Position numbers and translations under genes: made by a program
Assembly (NCBI RefSeq): GCF_026616205.1
Contig: NZ_JANHGR010000001.1
Span: forward strand, 992,001-1,056,000
Direction: 5' to 3'
Length of the DNA: 64,000 nucleotides
Source: Halolamina litorea
GTDB taxonomy: Archaea; Halobacteriota; Halobacteria; Halobacteriales; Haloferacaceae
Part shown: positions 38,055 through 44,950 of the stretch, piece after piece
Numbering within the stretch: the stretch's first letter is position 1
Layout: the number at the start of each line of letters is the position of its first letter
The notes under the pieces: generated by a model
Database searches by the model: none
What the model saw: the letters and a program-made list of their open reading frames with translations, nothing else
What the model was told of the DNA's origin: nothing

Positions 38055-38080
38055 CCGCCTCAGCATGCGGTAACGCAGAG

Positions 38081-38530
38081 CCTCCGTCCTCAAGGGCGAG
38101 CGAAGCGAGCGTTAGGGCGGAGAGGAAACGCGTTCAGAGAGATTTAACAGCACCCATGGGGTATCTCGTAATACTGCCGTCCTCGCACACGTCGGGGTCG
38201 GGAAGTGCCACCAGTAAACTGGCACCCGTGGTGCGGAAGTACCGCATCCTGAACTCGGGAACGACGACCGCGAACGGGTTGAACTCCCGTTCCCAGCTTG
38301 GGGATAGAGCGCGAGGACACCGGGAATTAAATCGGCGGGACAATCCTCGTCGTCGGTCGAAGTGGGAGGCGTCAAAAACGCGCCCACGCCAACGGGAGGA
38401 CGGTAAGAGGAAGCCGGACCGCGTCCTTGCATGGGGTCGCGGGGCACAATGTCGTTGCGGTAAAGCCCCGTCCTCAAGGAGTGACCGACCGTCGCAAGGC
38501 GGGAGAGAGCGAGTAGGGCGGGGTAGTTTA
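38081..38530 (+). mobile_element. IS1341-type end remnant with two omega-RNA-like hairpins
   Basis: Two related hairpins in direct orientation bound this 450-base stretch. The right one (38464-38530) opens CCCCGTCCTCAAGG and closes GAGTAGGGCGGGGTAGTTTA, the form found at the right end of haloarchaeal tnpB elements, where the guide RNA (omega RNA/sotRNA) is encoded. The left one (38081-38125) opens CTCCGTCCTCAAGG and closes TTAGGGCGGAG. The DNA between has no intact reading frame; one frame contains GSATSKLAP and SGTTTANG, which resemble the C-terminal tail of haloarchaeal TnpB. The transposase gene itself is missing. Confidence 0.55.
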
Positions 38531-38611
38531 CAGCACCAGAACCACCGTCGTTGCCGCCATCAGCAGCGCGACGACCCCCAGCAACAGCCCCAACAACTCC
38601 GTCTCGCTCAT
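38528..38611 (-). CDS. 27-residue membrane peptide
   Basis: Short minus-strand gene: MSETELLG followed by one hydrophobic helix to the end. The stop codon (TTA on the plus strand, 38528-38530) lies exactly inside the terminal GTAGTTTAC of the mobile-element end, so the element either supplied the stop or inserted at the 3' end of a once longer gene. No homologue is recognised. The Ser/Glu start with a Leu/Val helix is typical of tiny haloarchaeal membrane proteins, but a chance reading frame cannot be excluded. Confidence 0.4.
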   Translation of the reverse strand: MSETELLGLLLGVVALLMAATTVVLVL

Positions 38612-40844: not shown

Positions 40845-40928
40845 ATGGTGGCAACAGTGAGTATCGCCGTACGATCCGATTCGTTCGGCGGGGAAGTTGG
40901 CGCCGCCGCTTGCAGTGCGGAACCCTAA
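40845..40928 (+). CDS. Upstream ORF in the S-layer leader (27 codons)
   Basis: ATG at 40845 opens a 27-codon frame (MVATVSIAVRSDSFGG and on to CSAEP) with stop TAA at 40926-40928, only seven bases before the S-layer ATG at 40936. It begins just after the expected transcription start of the proximal promoter. If translated, terminating ribosomes would be delivered to the S-layer start codon. The peptide itself has no recognisable family, and it may be a chance frame. Confidence 0.3.
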   Translation: MVATVSIAVRSDSFGGEVGAAACSAEP

Positions 40929-40935
40929 TACAACA

Positions 40936-43749
40936 ATGACAGACAACTCAGACAAGATTCGCAGCATCGTTCTGGCTGCGCTGATGGTTTTCTCCGTCTT
41001 CGCGGGGACCGTCGCGCTGACCGGGACTGCGGCTGCGGCTGACTCACCGACCCTCAACGAGTTCACCAATACAACGGTGGATGAGGGCACTACGGTGGAT
41101 CATACAGTGAACTTCACAGTATCGAATATTAGTGACGACGGAAACACCGACTCGTTCGAGGTGACTCTGCCGACCGAAGCAGAGATATCTGCTGCACCGA
41201 GTGGCGGCGACTTCTCCATTGTGAACGAGAGTGGTGATACTGTTAGTACCACCAGTGGTCCGTCACTCGCGGACGCCAATGGCGGCACTAATAACCAGAT
41301 CACCTTCTCGGTTTCTCCCGACACGAGCGCTACCAACCAGACTCTGACGGTCAACTTTACCGCTCAGGTCAACTGGGGCAACGTTGACGGAGAAACCACT
41401 AAGGACGCCACCCTTACGGTGACGGATAGCGGTAACTCCGACATCAGTGAGGCAGCGGTCCAGACAATCACCATCCAGGAGACGAGCGGATCCCAGACTG
41501 GTGCACCTTCGGTCCGTAAGGCTACCCACTATGTCGACAACGACGATGGTGCCATCATCGAACTTGCTTTCGACGAAAGCATCTCGACGGCACCCTCGGA
41601 GGTCACTGTCAACCTTGCGGACGGTAGCACCGCGACGGCCTCGGTCGAGGACGATGACGGTGACGCCCGCATCGTTCTCAACACGTCCGGTAATGTTTAC
41701 AGCAACGTCCAGAACGTGACGATCGCTGAGGACGCGTTCCAGGACGACGGTGGCAACGCCGTTGCCGCGGACGATTACGAGGTCCGCTTCGCTCCTGTCA
41801 CGGTTGAGCAGCAGAGTGGCGGCACCACTGAAGGTTACATCGGCTCGAACGTCGCGTTCGAGGCTAACAATGTTGAGACCAGTGTCCGTTTCGACGGCCC
41901 GGGTATCAACAGCTACACGCGTGGTACTGGCACTGGTAGTCAGGTCTACGTCGTCGACACGGACGACTGGGGCGAGACGGGGAACTACTCCGCCCGCTTC
42001 GGTGGCTCCGGTGGTGACACGACCTACCTTGAGCTGAACGACCTCGGGCTGTCCGTCTCGGCTGACAACGTCACGACAGAGGAGAACGTGACTGCGACTG
42101 TCTCGGCCGACGACATCGACCGCGAAGTTGTGGTCGAACTTCTCAACAGCGACGACGAAGTTGAGGAAACGACCACGCGTACAATCGACTCGGACGGTGA
42201 GATCTCCGTTGAGTTTGACCAGTACGCTACTGGTGACTACTCGGTCGTCGTGACCGACACGGCCACCGGTGTCGAAGCAAGCGACTCCCTGACGGTCACC
42301 GAGGCTGCAGTCGGCGCAGTCGAGTTCGCACAGGGCTCCTACTCGGTCGACCAGGGAGACATCGCGGAGATCGACGTTGAACTGACTGGCGGTGCCTCTG
42401 AGGGTACCCTCGTCATCGGTCGCGAGGCCCAGTCGGGTTACAACGCGAACGTTACGTTCTACGACAACGACTCCGACGGTCAGGTCACGATTCAGTTCAA
42501 CACGTACCTGGCTGGCGACACGGACACCGAGTTCGTCACCGCCGCTGGTGACGACACCGCCTACGCTCAGAACGGTAACACGAGCCTGAACGGCGGCGAG
42601 GACCTGCTCGCACAGAGCGGGTACGACCTCGCAGTCCGAACGGGTGCAGACCTCAATACGACAGAGGTCTTCGAGAGCAGCGCCTCAGACTTCAGCTCGC
42701 TGGGCATCAACGCCGGCTCCGTCGAGGGCTTCCAGCTCTGGACGGCGCCCCGCTCGGCGGCCCCGGCTGACGTCTTCGACGCAACGCTGACGCAGGACAC
42801 GACGATCGCGAGCGACGACTGGGTTGTCCACCAGCTCAGCGCGACCGGCATCGAAGGTCTGGTCGCCGCGAACGACAACCTCTCGGCTACAATTGGTAGC
42901 GGCCTGAACGTCACGGTCGAGCAGACCGAGGAGACGACGCGGGCCAACCGCAACACGAAGGTGCTGAACATTTCCGAGTCCGGAGACGCAGTGCAGCTGC
43001 TGGCTGACTCGGACAATTCCTCCTACTACATCGCTGTGAATACCGAGGACGCAATGTTCGACCGCGGCTCGCAGAACGCCGTGGACCAGGGTGTTCGCGA
43101 CGGTGAAGCCTACGAGGCAACGGTGACCATCGACGACGAGAAGCTCGTCGGTGACGACCCGATGTCCATCAACGGTACGTTCGAGATCGTCGAGCGTACG
43201 TACAGTCTCGACAGCACGCCGGTGACCGTCGAGGCAGCTGAGGGCCAGAACATCACGGGTCAGAGCTCGGTCGCACCGGGCACTGAGATCCGGATGACGA
43301 TCCGCAGTGGCGCGGACGTGAGCCCCGGCTTCTACAAGAACCCGTCCACGACCGTGAACGCTGACGGTACGTTCACGTTCACGGCTGACTTCTCGGACAC
43401 CTCCGACGGTGACACGTTCACCATGACTGGTGCCGAGGATCAGATCGACGCGGAGGGTCAGGTTGGCGCAATGGAGACCGCAGAGCCGACCGCGACGGCA
43501 ACTGCAGAGCCGACCGCGACGGCAACCGCGACGGCAACGGCCACCGCGGAGCCGACCGCGACGGCAACTGCAGAGCCGACCGCGACGATGACCGCAGAGC
43601 CGACGGACGAGCCGACGGCTGAGCCGACGGACGAGCCGACGGACGAGCCGACGGATGAACCCACGACGACGACGACGCCCGGCTTCGGCGTCGCTGTCGC
43701 CCTCGTGGCCCTGCTCGCCGCCGCTCTGCTGGCCGGTCGACGAGAGTAA
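40936..43749 (+). CDS. S-layer glycoprotein with PGF-CTERM anchor
   Basis: Main cell-surface protein, 937 residues. A Sec signal peptide (KIRSIVLAALMVFSVFAGTVAL to GTAAAA, about residues 7-35) precedes a long Thr/Ser/Asp-rich beta-sandwich ectodomain with about twenty N-glycosylation sequons (for example NTTV, NFTV, NISD, NQTL, NVTT, NNSS-like NSSY). A Thr-rich AEPTATAT / EPTDEPTDEP region (43471-43672) would be O-glycosylated and span the periplasm-like space. The C-terminus is TPGFGVAVALVALLAAALLAGRRE: the PGF-CTERM tripartite signal cut by archaeosortase A and replaced by a lipid. The coding sequence uses more A/T at third positions than its neighbours, as expected of a very highly expressed gene. 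archaeosortase A is the next gene. Confidence 0.92.
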   Translation: MTDNSDKIRSIVLAALMVFSVFAGTVALTGTAAAADSPTLNEFTNTTVDEGTTVDHTVNFTVSNISDDGNTDSFEVTLPTEAEISAAPSGGDFSIVNESGDTVSTTSGPSLADANGGTNNQITFSVSPDTSATNQTLTVNFTAQVNWGNVDGETTKDATLTVTDSGNSDISEAAVQTITIQETSGSQTGAPSVRKATHYVDNDDGAIIELAFDESISTAPSEVTVNLADGSTATASVEDDDGDARIVLNTSGNVYSNVQNVTIAEDAFQDDGGNAVAADDYEVRFAPVTVEQQSGGTTEGYIGSNVAFEANNVETSVRFDGPGINSYTRGTGTGSQVYVVDTDDWGETGNYSARFGGSGGDTTYLELNDLGLSVSADNVTTEENVTATVSADDIDREVVVELLNSDDEVEETTTRTIDSDGEISVEFDQYATGDYSVVVTDTATGVEASDSLTVTEAAVGAVEFAQGSYSVDQGDIAEIDVELTGGASEGTLVIGREAQSGYNANVTFYDNDSDGQVTIQFNTYLAGDTDTEFVTAAGDDTAYAQNGNTSLNGGEDLLAQSGYDLAVRTGADLNTTEVFESSASDFSSLGINAGSVEGFQLWTAPRSAAPADVFDATLTQDTTIASDDWVVHQLSATGIEGLVAANDNLSATIGSGLNVTVEQTEETTRANRNTKVLNISESGDAVQLLADSDNSSYYIAVNTEDAMFDRGSQNAVDQGVRDGEAYEATVTIDDEKLVGDDPMSINGTFEIVERTYSLDSTPVTVEAAEGQNITGQSSVAPGTEIRMTIRSGADVSPGFYKNPSTTVNADGTFTFTADFSDTSDGDTFTMTGAEDQIDAEGQVGAMETAEPTATATAEPTATATATATATAEPTATATAEPTATMTAEPTDEPTAEPTDEPTDEPTDEPTTTTTPGFGVAVALVALLAAALLAGRRE
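43471..43672 (+). repeat. Short tandem repeat coding the Thr/Pro-rich stalk
   Basis: Within the S-layer gene, units of GAGCCGACCGCGACGGCAAC and GAGCCGACGGACGAGCCGAC repeat with small variations, encoding AEPTATAT- and DEPTDEPT-type peptide. Such stalk repeats vary in number among strains through slippage or recombination. Confidence 0.8.
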
Positions 43750-43777
43750 CTGACTCTCCCGACCCGCCGTAACTAAC

Positions 43778-43815
43778 ACCGGCTTCACGCCGGTCTTCCC
43801 GTTTTCACTTCTTTC
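43778..43815 (+). terminator. Hairpin and T-rich tract after the S-layer gene
   Basis: ACCGGC (43778-43783) and GCCGGT (43789-43794) form a perfect six-base stem with a TTCAC loop, followed by CTTCCCGTTTTCACTTCTTT. It lies about 30 bases after the S-layer stop and 105 bases before the artA ATG. A strong terminator here would keep S-layer transcription from flooding into artA; function is inference. Confidence 0.5.
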
Positions 43816-43900
43816 GACGCGCCACACCCGATAGCGACAGCCGTGTGCGCTCGATCCGCACAACGGTAAGGGATTTACCCGCGGGATTCGTTCTTCAGGT

Positions 43901-44950
43901 ATGGCCGGTATCGCGGGTAGCGTTCCGCCGTGGCTCCTCGACGTGACCGACGTGCTGGCGTGGATCGTCATCGGGGCGTTCACGCTCGGAGCGGTGCTCG
44001 AAATCACTGCGCGCCGCCGGGACCGAAACGCCCAGCGCGGCTCGCTTCAAGCAGCGATCGGCGCCGGACGCCACCAGCTCCGTCACGCCCGAACCGCGGC
44101 GACGGCGGGGTGGGGATTGTTCGCCGTCTTCTGGCTGCTGTTGTTCCCGCACTTCGCGTTCGTCCACAAGAGCTACGTCGAGGGTGTCCTCGCCCTCCTC
44201 GCCGTTCCCGCCAGTCTCTACGCGGGCTACCTCCTGTGGCAGGGCCGGGACACGCTGTTCCTGCTCTCGCGGTCGACGGCGATCATGGGGCTGGTCTACC
44301 TCCCCTTCGAGACCATCCCCGCGATCAACCTCGGCGGCGTCCGCATCCCCTCGCCCCGTGAGGTGCTGATCGAGACCGTCGCCGCCCAGACGGGGTTCAT
44401 GATCCGCCTGTTCGGCTCCGATCCCGAACTGATCGCCGGACCGCAGGGCTACATGAACACCTACGAGTTCATCGCCGCCGACGGGCATGTCCTCCAGTTC
44501 TCGGTCGTCCTCGCGTGTACTGGACTGGGGAGCATCGCCATCTTCGCCGGGCTCATCGGCGCCGTGCGGGCGCCGCTGCGCCGGAAGCTGCGCGGGCTCG
44601 CCGTCGCCGTCCCCGTCATCTACGGACTGAACCTGCTCCGGACGACGTTCATCGGGATCACCTTCGGCGAGCAGTTGCTCCAGGTCTTCCCGAACCTCGT
44701 GTTGACGATGTTCGGCGGCACCGATCCCTACCGGGTCTCGTGGTACGTCTCCGACCGGATCATCAGTCAGGTCCTGGCCGTGGTGGCGCTGGTCGGCGTC
44801 ACCTACCTCGTCGTCCGGGAACTACCGGAGATCCTGACGATCATCGAGGACGTGCTGTTCATGGTGACCGGCGACGAGTACGACCTCTCCGAGGCACTGG
44901 AACTGCCCCGGACGGCGACTGACGCACAGCTCCCCGAGACTGGCGACTAA
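43901..44950 (+). CDS. artA: Archaeosortase A
   Basis: Polytopic membrane protein of 349 residues with about eight helices, the transpeptidase-like enzyme that processes PGF-CTERM proteins and attaches them to membrane lipid. The exosortase/archaeosortase catalytic residues are visible: Cys in VVLACTGLGSIAIF, and conserved Arg in GLNLLRTTFIGI; a further late His/Arg-type position is not clear. It lies 150 bases downstream of the S-layer gene, its expected main substrate, and would also serve the cohesin/PGF-CTERM protein at 61.5-62.6 kb. Its stop overlaps the convergent dphB stop by four bases. Confidence 0.93.
   Translation: MAGIAGSVPPWLLDVTDVLAWIVIGAFTLGAVLEITARRRDRNAQRGSLQAAIGAGRHQLRHARTAATAGWGLFAVFWLLLFPHFAFVHKSYVEGVLALLAVPASLYAGYLLWQGRDTLFLLSRSTAIMGLVYLPFETIPAINLGGVRIPSPREVLIETVAAQTGFMIRLFGSDPELIAGPQGYMNTYEFIAADGHVLQFSVVLACTGLGSIAIFAGLIGAVRAPLRRKLRGLAVAVPVIYGLNLLRTTFIGITFGEQLLQVFPNLVLTMFGGTDPYRVSWYVSDRIISQVLAVVALVGVTYLVVRELPEILTIIEDVLFMVTGDEYDLSEALELPRTATDAQLPETGD

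Follow-up and report, generated by a model that had tools for sequence, protein, structure and literature searches.

The 468-bp sequence described here is a tnpB-less mobile element of the IS200/IS605 type, a palindrome-associated transposable element (PATE), and it probably carries as its cargo a solo gene for a TnpB omega-RNA whose product would be used by TnpB in trans. It lies within the window, i.e. the whole 64-kb stretch of DNA analysed (C1:992001-1056000 of genome G000, 3.02 Mb in four contigs), and its features are collected in Table 1. A first-pass annotation had described two omega-RNA-like hairpins in direct order without a transposase gene. The hairpins are indeed there, with CCGTCCTCAAGG found exactly at 38084 and 38468, in the same direction and 384 bases apart; allowing at most one mismatch, this string occurs three times against 0.67 expected in 64 kb, two of the three being exact. 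Folding gives -21.4 kcal/mol (z -2.8) for the left hairpin and -32.9 kcal/mol (z -4.3) for the right one, where 0 of 200 shuffles are as good. The window lacks a transposase gene, as had been noted: it has no PF07282 match, and the four in the genome all lie outside it. The right hairpin was correctly recognised as an end like those of tnpB elements, the same hairpin being found 3′ of tnpB genes. The left hairpin is not an omega-RNA but the left end of the transposon; the scaffold of the putative omega-RNA occupies the ~300 nt that separate the two hairpins, a stretch passed over in the annotation. The reported span of 38081-38530 holds both hairpins and falls slightly short of the true element.

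Table 1. Anatomy of the element and its immediate surroundings, with the evidence for each feature
Feature	Position	Strand	Evidence
TCAG insertion target, left of the element	38060..38063	+	flank counts; related tnpB elements with the same left target
Whole tnpB-less mobile element, 468 bp	38064..38531	+	copy alignments, differing flanks
Left-end (LE) hairpin of the transposon	38082..38122	+	fold; same left end before tnpB genes; covarying helix 1
TTTAA, TATA-box-like, putative archaeal promoter	38143..38147	+	A+T peak in 19 copies; promoter activity inferred
Omega-RNA scaffold core: P1, P2, P3, T-loop-like arm, P4, conserved ACCGGGAATTAAAYCGGCGGGACAATCC	38173..38349	+	covariation; R1 204.6 bits; R2 51.7 bits
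Extra RNA domain, core to terminal hairpin	38350..38459	+	alignments A1 and A3
Right-end (RE) hairpin = omega-RNA 3′ hairpin, terminal GTTTAC	38460..38531	+	fold z -4.3; covarying helix 16; same hairpin after tnpB genes
Presumed guide AGCACCAGAACCACCGTCGT, first 16-20 nt of the right flank	38532..38551	+	position by analogy with reRNA
27-codon ORF MSETELLGLLLGVVALLMAATTVVLVL, stop TAA from the element	38528..38611	-	read from sequence

The stretch 38075-38545 has a second copy in its own genome at C1:155363-155814 (blast, 80% identity), and its left end partly matches beside a tnpB gene on C3. Among 40 genomes (own included), full-length or nearly full-length copies were found in G005 (two), G009 and G023 (two), along with numerous short matches to one end or the other, some of them in pairs ~1.4 kb apart that are the ends of tnpB elements. 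The interior only (38135-38460) matched in 31 of 391 genomes of the class, own included. A 22-base core motif recovered 39 stretches in named genomes, and the relatives found in this way are all haloarchaeal by title. Carriage by a phage or virus was rejected, as the exact core motif is absent from viral_contigs and the phage collection gave no match to the element. Nine weak DNA matches (L056, L058-L065) showed no element ends by eye and look like ordinary genomic sequence.

In 21 aligned copies, conservation sets in directly behind TCA(G) and stops at GTTTAC, and the flanks are unrelated. Haladaptatus halobius has several copies. Saliphagus infecundisoli has at least nine near-identical stretches from TCAG to GTTTAC with differing flanks (one of them is cut by the end of its contig and starts within the element), a sign of recent movement. 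One of these copies, L130, sits inside a tnpB gene, and joining ...TGTCAG to AAGTGC... across it restores the reading frame, which fixes the edges of the element and places the window copy behind its TCAG as listed in Table 1. Among 37 distinct left flanks, TCAG was found in 34 and TCAC in 3, with T enriched one base further out (21/37), in a count whose pattern itself required T[CT]A[GC] and left out 17 copies that did not fit it. The empty site was not recovered from the flanks in the seven genomes of the genus (own included), so that the edges rest on the copy alignments and the L130 insertion. The element thus shows what defines a PATE: near-terminal palindromes common to tnpB/tnpA elements, a length too short to encode the transposase gene that it lacks, and multiple copies with sharp ends, different flanks and no target duplication (TCAG on the left only). 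Its left end and TCAG target agree with those of the tnpB elements L012, L022 and L035, and its right-end hairpin is the one that terminates tnpB elements such as these; TCAG would be the expected TAM of a matching TnpB. The same core also occurs between a different pair of end palindromes (L111, L114, L136 and L078). The ends of the window element thus belong to one IS group.

The structure of the interior was derived from alignment A1, which comprises 19 of the 21 aligned copies (L077, rearranged, and L084, with an arm deleted, were left out) and also excludes contig-end, N-containing, degenerate or different-end loci. RNAalifold predicted 98 pairs in this alignment, 27 of them with compensatory double changes. 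Over 82 of these pairs, two long-range helices being excluded, 96.3% of the cells are paired compared to 37.6-50.4% with slid partners, and 88 cells are changed on both sides compared to 7-14 with slid partners and 24.7 in shuffles; none of 500 shuffles reached any observed measure. On the + strand, the interior helices contain 112 G-U against 12 A-C appositions, a count made on a structure that had been chosen with G-U allowed, and this excess favours an RNA read from left to right. Upstream of a conserved ACTG, the A+T fraction in the 19 copies peaks at 0.74-0.95 at -30 to -26, which in the window is the TTTAA of Table 1. An archaeal TATA box lies at this distance before the RNA start, and the peak fits the spacing rule. 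Over the ~360 nt behind the TATA-like box, base pairs covary strongly on the + strand.

Could the interior structure serve single-stranded DNA transposition and not an RNA? The end hairpins of such elements are palindromes of a single-stranded DNA transposon (PMC3119063, available text), and in our alignment the end helices covary as well (LE helix 1, RE helix 16). We consider this very improbable: most covarying helices are interior, G-U prevails over A-C on one strand (with the reservation on G-U given above), the homology is to omega-RNA (model R2, below), and the core recurs in L111, L114, L136 and L078, whose end palindromes are quite different.

Homology to TnpB omega-RNA was examined with covariance models in both directions. 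R1 was built from 32 element cores only (alignment A2, 32 of 46 distinct cores), and R2 from 18 tnpB-overlapping RNAs and no element (alignment A3, 18 of 26 tnpB-associated matches). Against 391 genomes of the class, R1 gave 27 matches of at least 97 bits, which are the element family with its closest relatives; below a gap, a long tail begins at 52.7 bits. At E ≤0.01, 139 genomes match, although the tool itself describes the E-values of both models as rough. The window copy has the top R1 score (204.6 bits) and is also among the sequences from which R1 was built. We examined 32 tail matches, 13 of them extracted as loci and 19 chosen by hand. In 26 of them the match starts 35 or 44 nt after the DYNAA(K/R)N codons and crosses the tnpB 3′ end towards the right end; the 3′ end of the tnpB gene is where omega-RNA (reRNA) is encoded (PMC8612924). 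The remaining six are without tnpB: L155 and L161, which are tnpB-less elements with other ends, and L173, L178, L182 and L184.

In the reverse direction, R2 matches the window at 38173-38345 on the + strand with 51.7 bits (E 1.1e-12, likewise rough), the next best match in the 64 kb having 8.6 bits. R2 also matches each of the 26 tnpB-less elements given to it, that of the window among them, and in this genome it matches three out of four TnpB loci (L003, 132.8 bits; L004, 75.6 bits; L002, 52.6 bits; none at L001). On both models, the element scaffold is homologous to TnpB omega-RNA. We therefore read the element as a solo omega-RNA gene with a putative promoter, scaffold, extra domain, terminal hairpin and a guide from 38532 on, and an RNA reading into AGCACCAGAACC, as proposed earlier, would be its natural product. 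Because the element has no tnpB, and its RNA thus does not come from a tnpB 3′ end, we call it a solo omega-RNA homologue and not a canonical tnpB-linked omega-RNA.

Further tnpB-less omega-RNA elements have other end palindromes (L111, L114, L136, L078, L155 and L161) or a rebuilt 5′ domain (L090), and all match R2; they suggest several lineages of solo omega-RNA elements. Rfam gave no gathering match in the window. At E ≤10, eight element loci gave only sub-threshold DUF3800-X matches, at the right end of six of the eight; the omega-type families did not match the core, and matches to sot0042 and HgcC (L033:1079-1235) lie outside the element. A group I or II intron or an IStron was rejected on the lack of an Rfam match in the window and in the element interiors of the eight loci, and on the many copies that are antisense to the neighbouring gene. 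A tRNA-derived interior, suggested by the T-loop-like GGTTCRANTCC, was also rejected, as ARAGORN found no tRNA in the eight element loci; on eleven weak-match loci it reported one unrelated tRNA-Lys only.

The element RNA differs from the TnpB omega-RNA in several respects. It is encoded without tnpB behind a separate TATA-like box, and would measure about 360 nt plus guide compared to about 150 nt. In the tnpB-linked omega-RNAs the core leads almost directly to the right-end hairpin, whereas about 110 nt or more lie between them in the element copies. Hairpin P3, inside the core of the window element, is absent from the tnpB-linked omega-RNAs and from elements L111, L114 and L136. As neither the extra ~110-nt domain nor P3 is found in the tnpB-linked omega-RNAs, binding by TnpB is not assured. 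These departures would also suit a decoy or sponge, an RNA that binds TnpB and inhibits it through the extra domain, protecting host or element from cleavage; a multi-copy RNA could outcompete the resident omega-RNAs, and circular omega-RNAs have been suggested to act as decoys (PMC12558985, available text). We find this improbable, as both the right-end hairpin beside the guide and the TCAG target are preserved without change and a pure decoy would have no use for them, although TnpA-mediated movement also needs the ends. At one and the same place of the extra domain, copies L074, L076, L080 and L082, from different genomes, contain an insertion made up of small, perfect hairpins in a row (TCGTTCGAAAGGCGC...GCGCCTTTCGTG and others); these may be small mobile repeats that lie within the element.

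The C-terminus of TnpB has also left a fossil in the interior. The window element reads, in a single frame, SHTSGSGSATSKLAP...LNSGTTTANG compared to WHKSGSGGATSHLALKSGTLNVNG in TnpB L158, and copy L072 reads SHKSGSVGATSKLAP...YSGTTTANG; we do not read this as a gene because several copies have interruptions or shifts in that frame. A PATE-like element of Halanaerobium hydrogeniformans has a left-end hairpin, the last 58 nt of tnpB, the whole right end and no genes (PMC7290912). It was described as one copy of 271 nt, with RNA function not discussed in the available text of that paper, and may perhaps show a deletion of this kind at an early point. The fossil, the Halanaerobium sequence and the lack of TnpA in G000 would fit a dead remnant, an internally deleted tnpB element that has omega-RNA sequence by descent only and makes no useful product. 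This is unlikely in our judgement: the 88 doubly changed cells indicate a structure under selection across diverged copies, near-identical copies in Saliphagus are recent, the position of the TATA-like box is conserved, and the window copy has the highest R1 score (though also used to build that model). The earlier description of the locus as a remnant does not hold, as the element is an intact member of a family recently mobile in other species.

If the element is a solo omega-RNA gene, its guide should come from the adjoining DNA, since the last ~16 nt of a reRNA derive from flanking DNA (PMC8612924). The anatomy fits the 3′ end of an omega-RNA, with the right-end hairpin adjoining the putative guide and TCAG left of the element. 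TCAG followed by the guide has no other site in the genome within three mismatches, so a role as a regulator is unsupported. The guide alone has 11 other sites in the genome, all with three mismatches, compared to seven for the reversed control pattern.

The element also tends to lie where an antisense gene has its stop codon. Read backwards, the right end is GTAAAC, and among 45 distinct right flanks screened, 13 had a coding signature pointing at the element; in 12 of these 13 copies the frame of the antisense gene gives TAA. The empty site would give TGA from CTGA (12/13 compared to one third, p = 1.7e-5). In the window, the antisense gene is the 27-codon ORF of Table 1, whose stop is supplied by the element. 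Surviving insertions thus appear to be those at opposing stop codons. Elsewhere in the window, at 40897-44950, an S-layer-like surface protein of the ArtA-dependent type is encoded next to an archaeosortase A gene; its PGF-CTERM match stays below the equivalog cut-off, and its C-terminal part repeats TATAEPT.

TnpB proteins are present elsewhere in the genome, as the first-pass annotation had supposed they might be: PF07282 matches lie at C1:366657, C1:838706, C1:881058 and C3:147326, and all four proteins pass the NCBIfam guided_TnpB cut-off. Three of these loci carry omega-RNAs homologous to that of the element (R2). The tnpB element at C3:147326 (L002) has its target, left end and right end in common with the window element, and its protein keeps GIDLGVNSLA, IVFEDL and ADYNGAKN, which we take to be the RuvC catalytic motifs; from these sequence features, L002 is the likely partner of the element. 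TnpB L001 (C1:838706) has none of the three RuvC-type motif strings, reads VVGDL where the others have [IV][AV]FE.L and shows no R2 match downstream; it is a different TnpB clade. TnpB was found in all 18 carrier genomes (own included), which is weak evidence because TnpB is common in haloarchaea. No PF01797 match, i.e. no TnpA, was found anywhere in the own genome; among the 18 carriers, TnpA is present in 12 and absent from six. Transposition in the own genome and in the other carriers without TnpA is therefore not currently possible by the known route.

A working model of the solo omega-RNA gene can be drawn from these features. RNA polymerase would start near 38170 behind the TATA-like box on the + strand, and the transcript would run through the right-end hairpin into the flank. 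TnpB made elsewhere would bind and trim this RNA, with the flank (AGCACCAGAACCACCG) as guide, and the loaded TnpB would cut TCAG plus the right flank, i.e. this site where the element is missing. If the break is repaired from a copy that has the element, the element would be restored or spread. The element-bearing locus itself would be spared, as TTAC and not TCAG precedes the guide there, and movement to new sites would need TnpA in trans. The most likely working of the element would accordingly to this model be retention and homing, a mode proposed for TnpB itself (PMC8612924). A broader reading is that these are selfish elements made of a guide RNA only: haloarchaeal tnpB-less lineages would have kept, re-promoted and enlarged the omega-RNA, each insertion acquiring its own homing guide and parasitising the TnpB (and TnpA) of other elements, which would amount to an RNA-guided gene drive in a protein-free mobile unit, in several lineages with different end palindromes. 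We regard the case for this broader reading as evenly balanced.

The element resembles the PATEs of Haloquadratum walsbyi in its near-terminal IS605-like palindromes, the lack of a transposase gene, the occurrence in several copies and the absence, in the available text, of a reported target duplication (PMC3119063). It differs in that the same text does not describe a conserved RNA, whereas the window element has in its interior an omega-RNA homologue that shows covariation and is preceded by a separate TATA-like box. With the TnpB omega-RNA or reRNA (PMC8612924) and the haloarchaeal sotRNAs (PMC12558985) it would have in common a homologous scaffold and a guide expected directly after the right end; haloarchaea are described as expressing omega-RNAs together with circular forms (PMC12558985). 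A 489-bp PATE of the Halorubrum tailed virus DL1 gives strong, almost one-directional RNA over its terminal ~300 bp (PMC10544981, OP630574). Its expression speaks for the solo omega-RNA reading, although this PATE (L138:600-1090, OP630574) has no R1 match and its ends differ by eye from those of the window element. A search of the open-licence PMC literature turned up no account of PATEs that carry a conserved solo omega-RNA, and a subscription paper could hold one.

In the available text, PATEs are listed as protein-free repeats with no function stated. If many of them are solo omega-RNA genes, the 300-400 bp that such elements keep would be explained. The extra RNA domain is also a natural scaffold variant on which the tolerance of TnpB for changes in its RNA could be studied. 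For culturable haloarchaea, some of which have near-identical copies, the prediction would be that the RNA is present and bound by TnpB and that the empty site is cut. In bacteria, TnpB has been reported to drive insertion sequences among plasmid copies in the manner of a gene drive (PMC11870625). In polyploid archaea, a guide of this kind could carry an insertion into every genome copy, with no transposase needed. In summary, if many PATEs are solo omega-RNA genes, TnpB would have a clientele acting in trans, made up of elements that supply a guide only and spread or persist by it.
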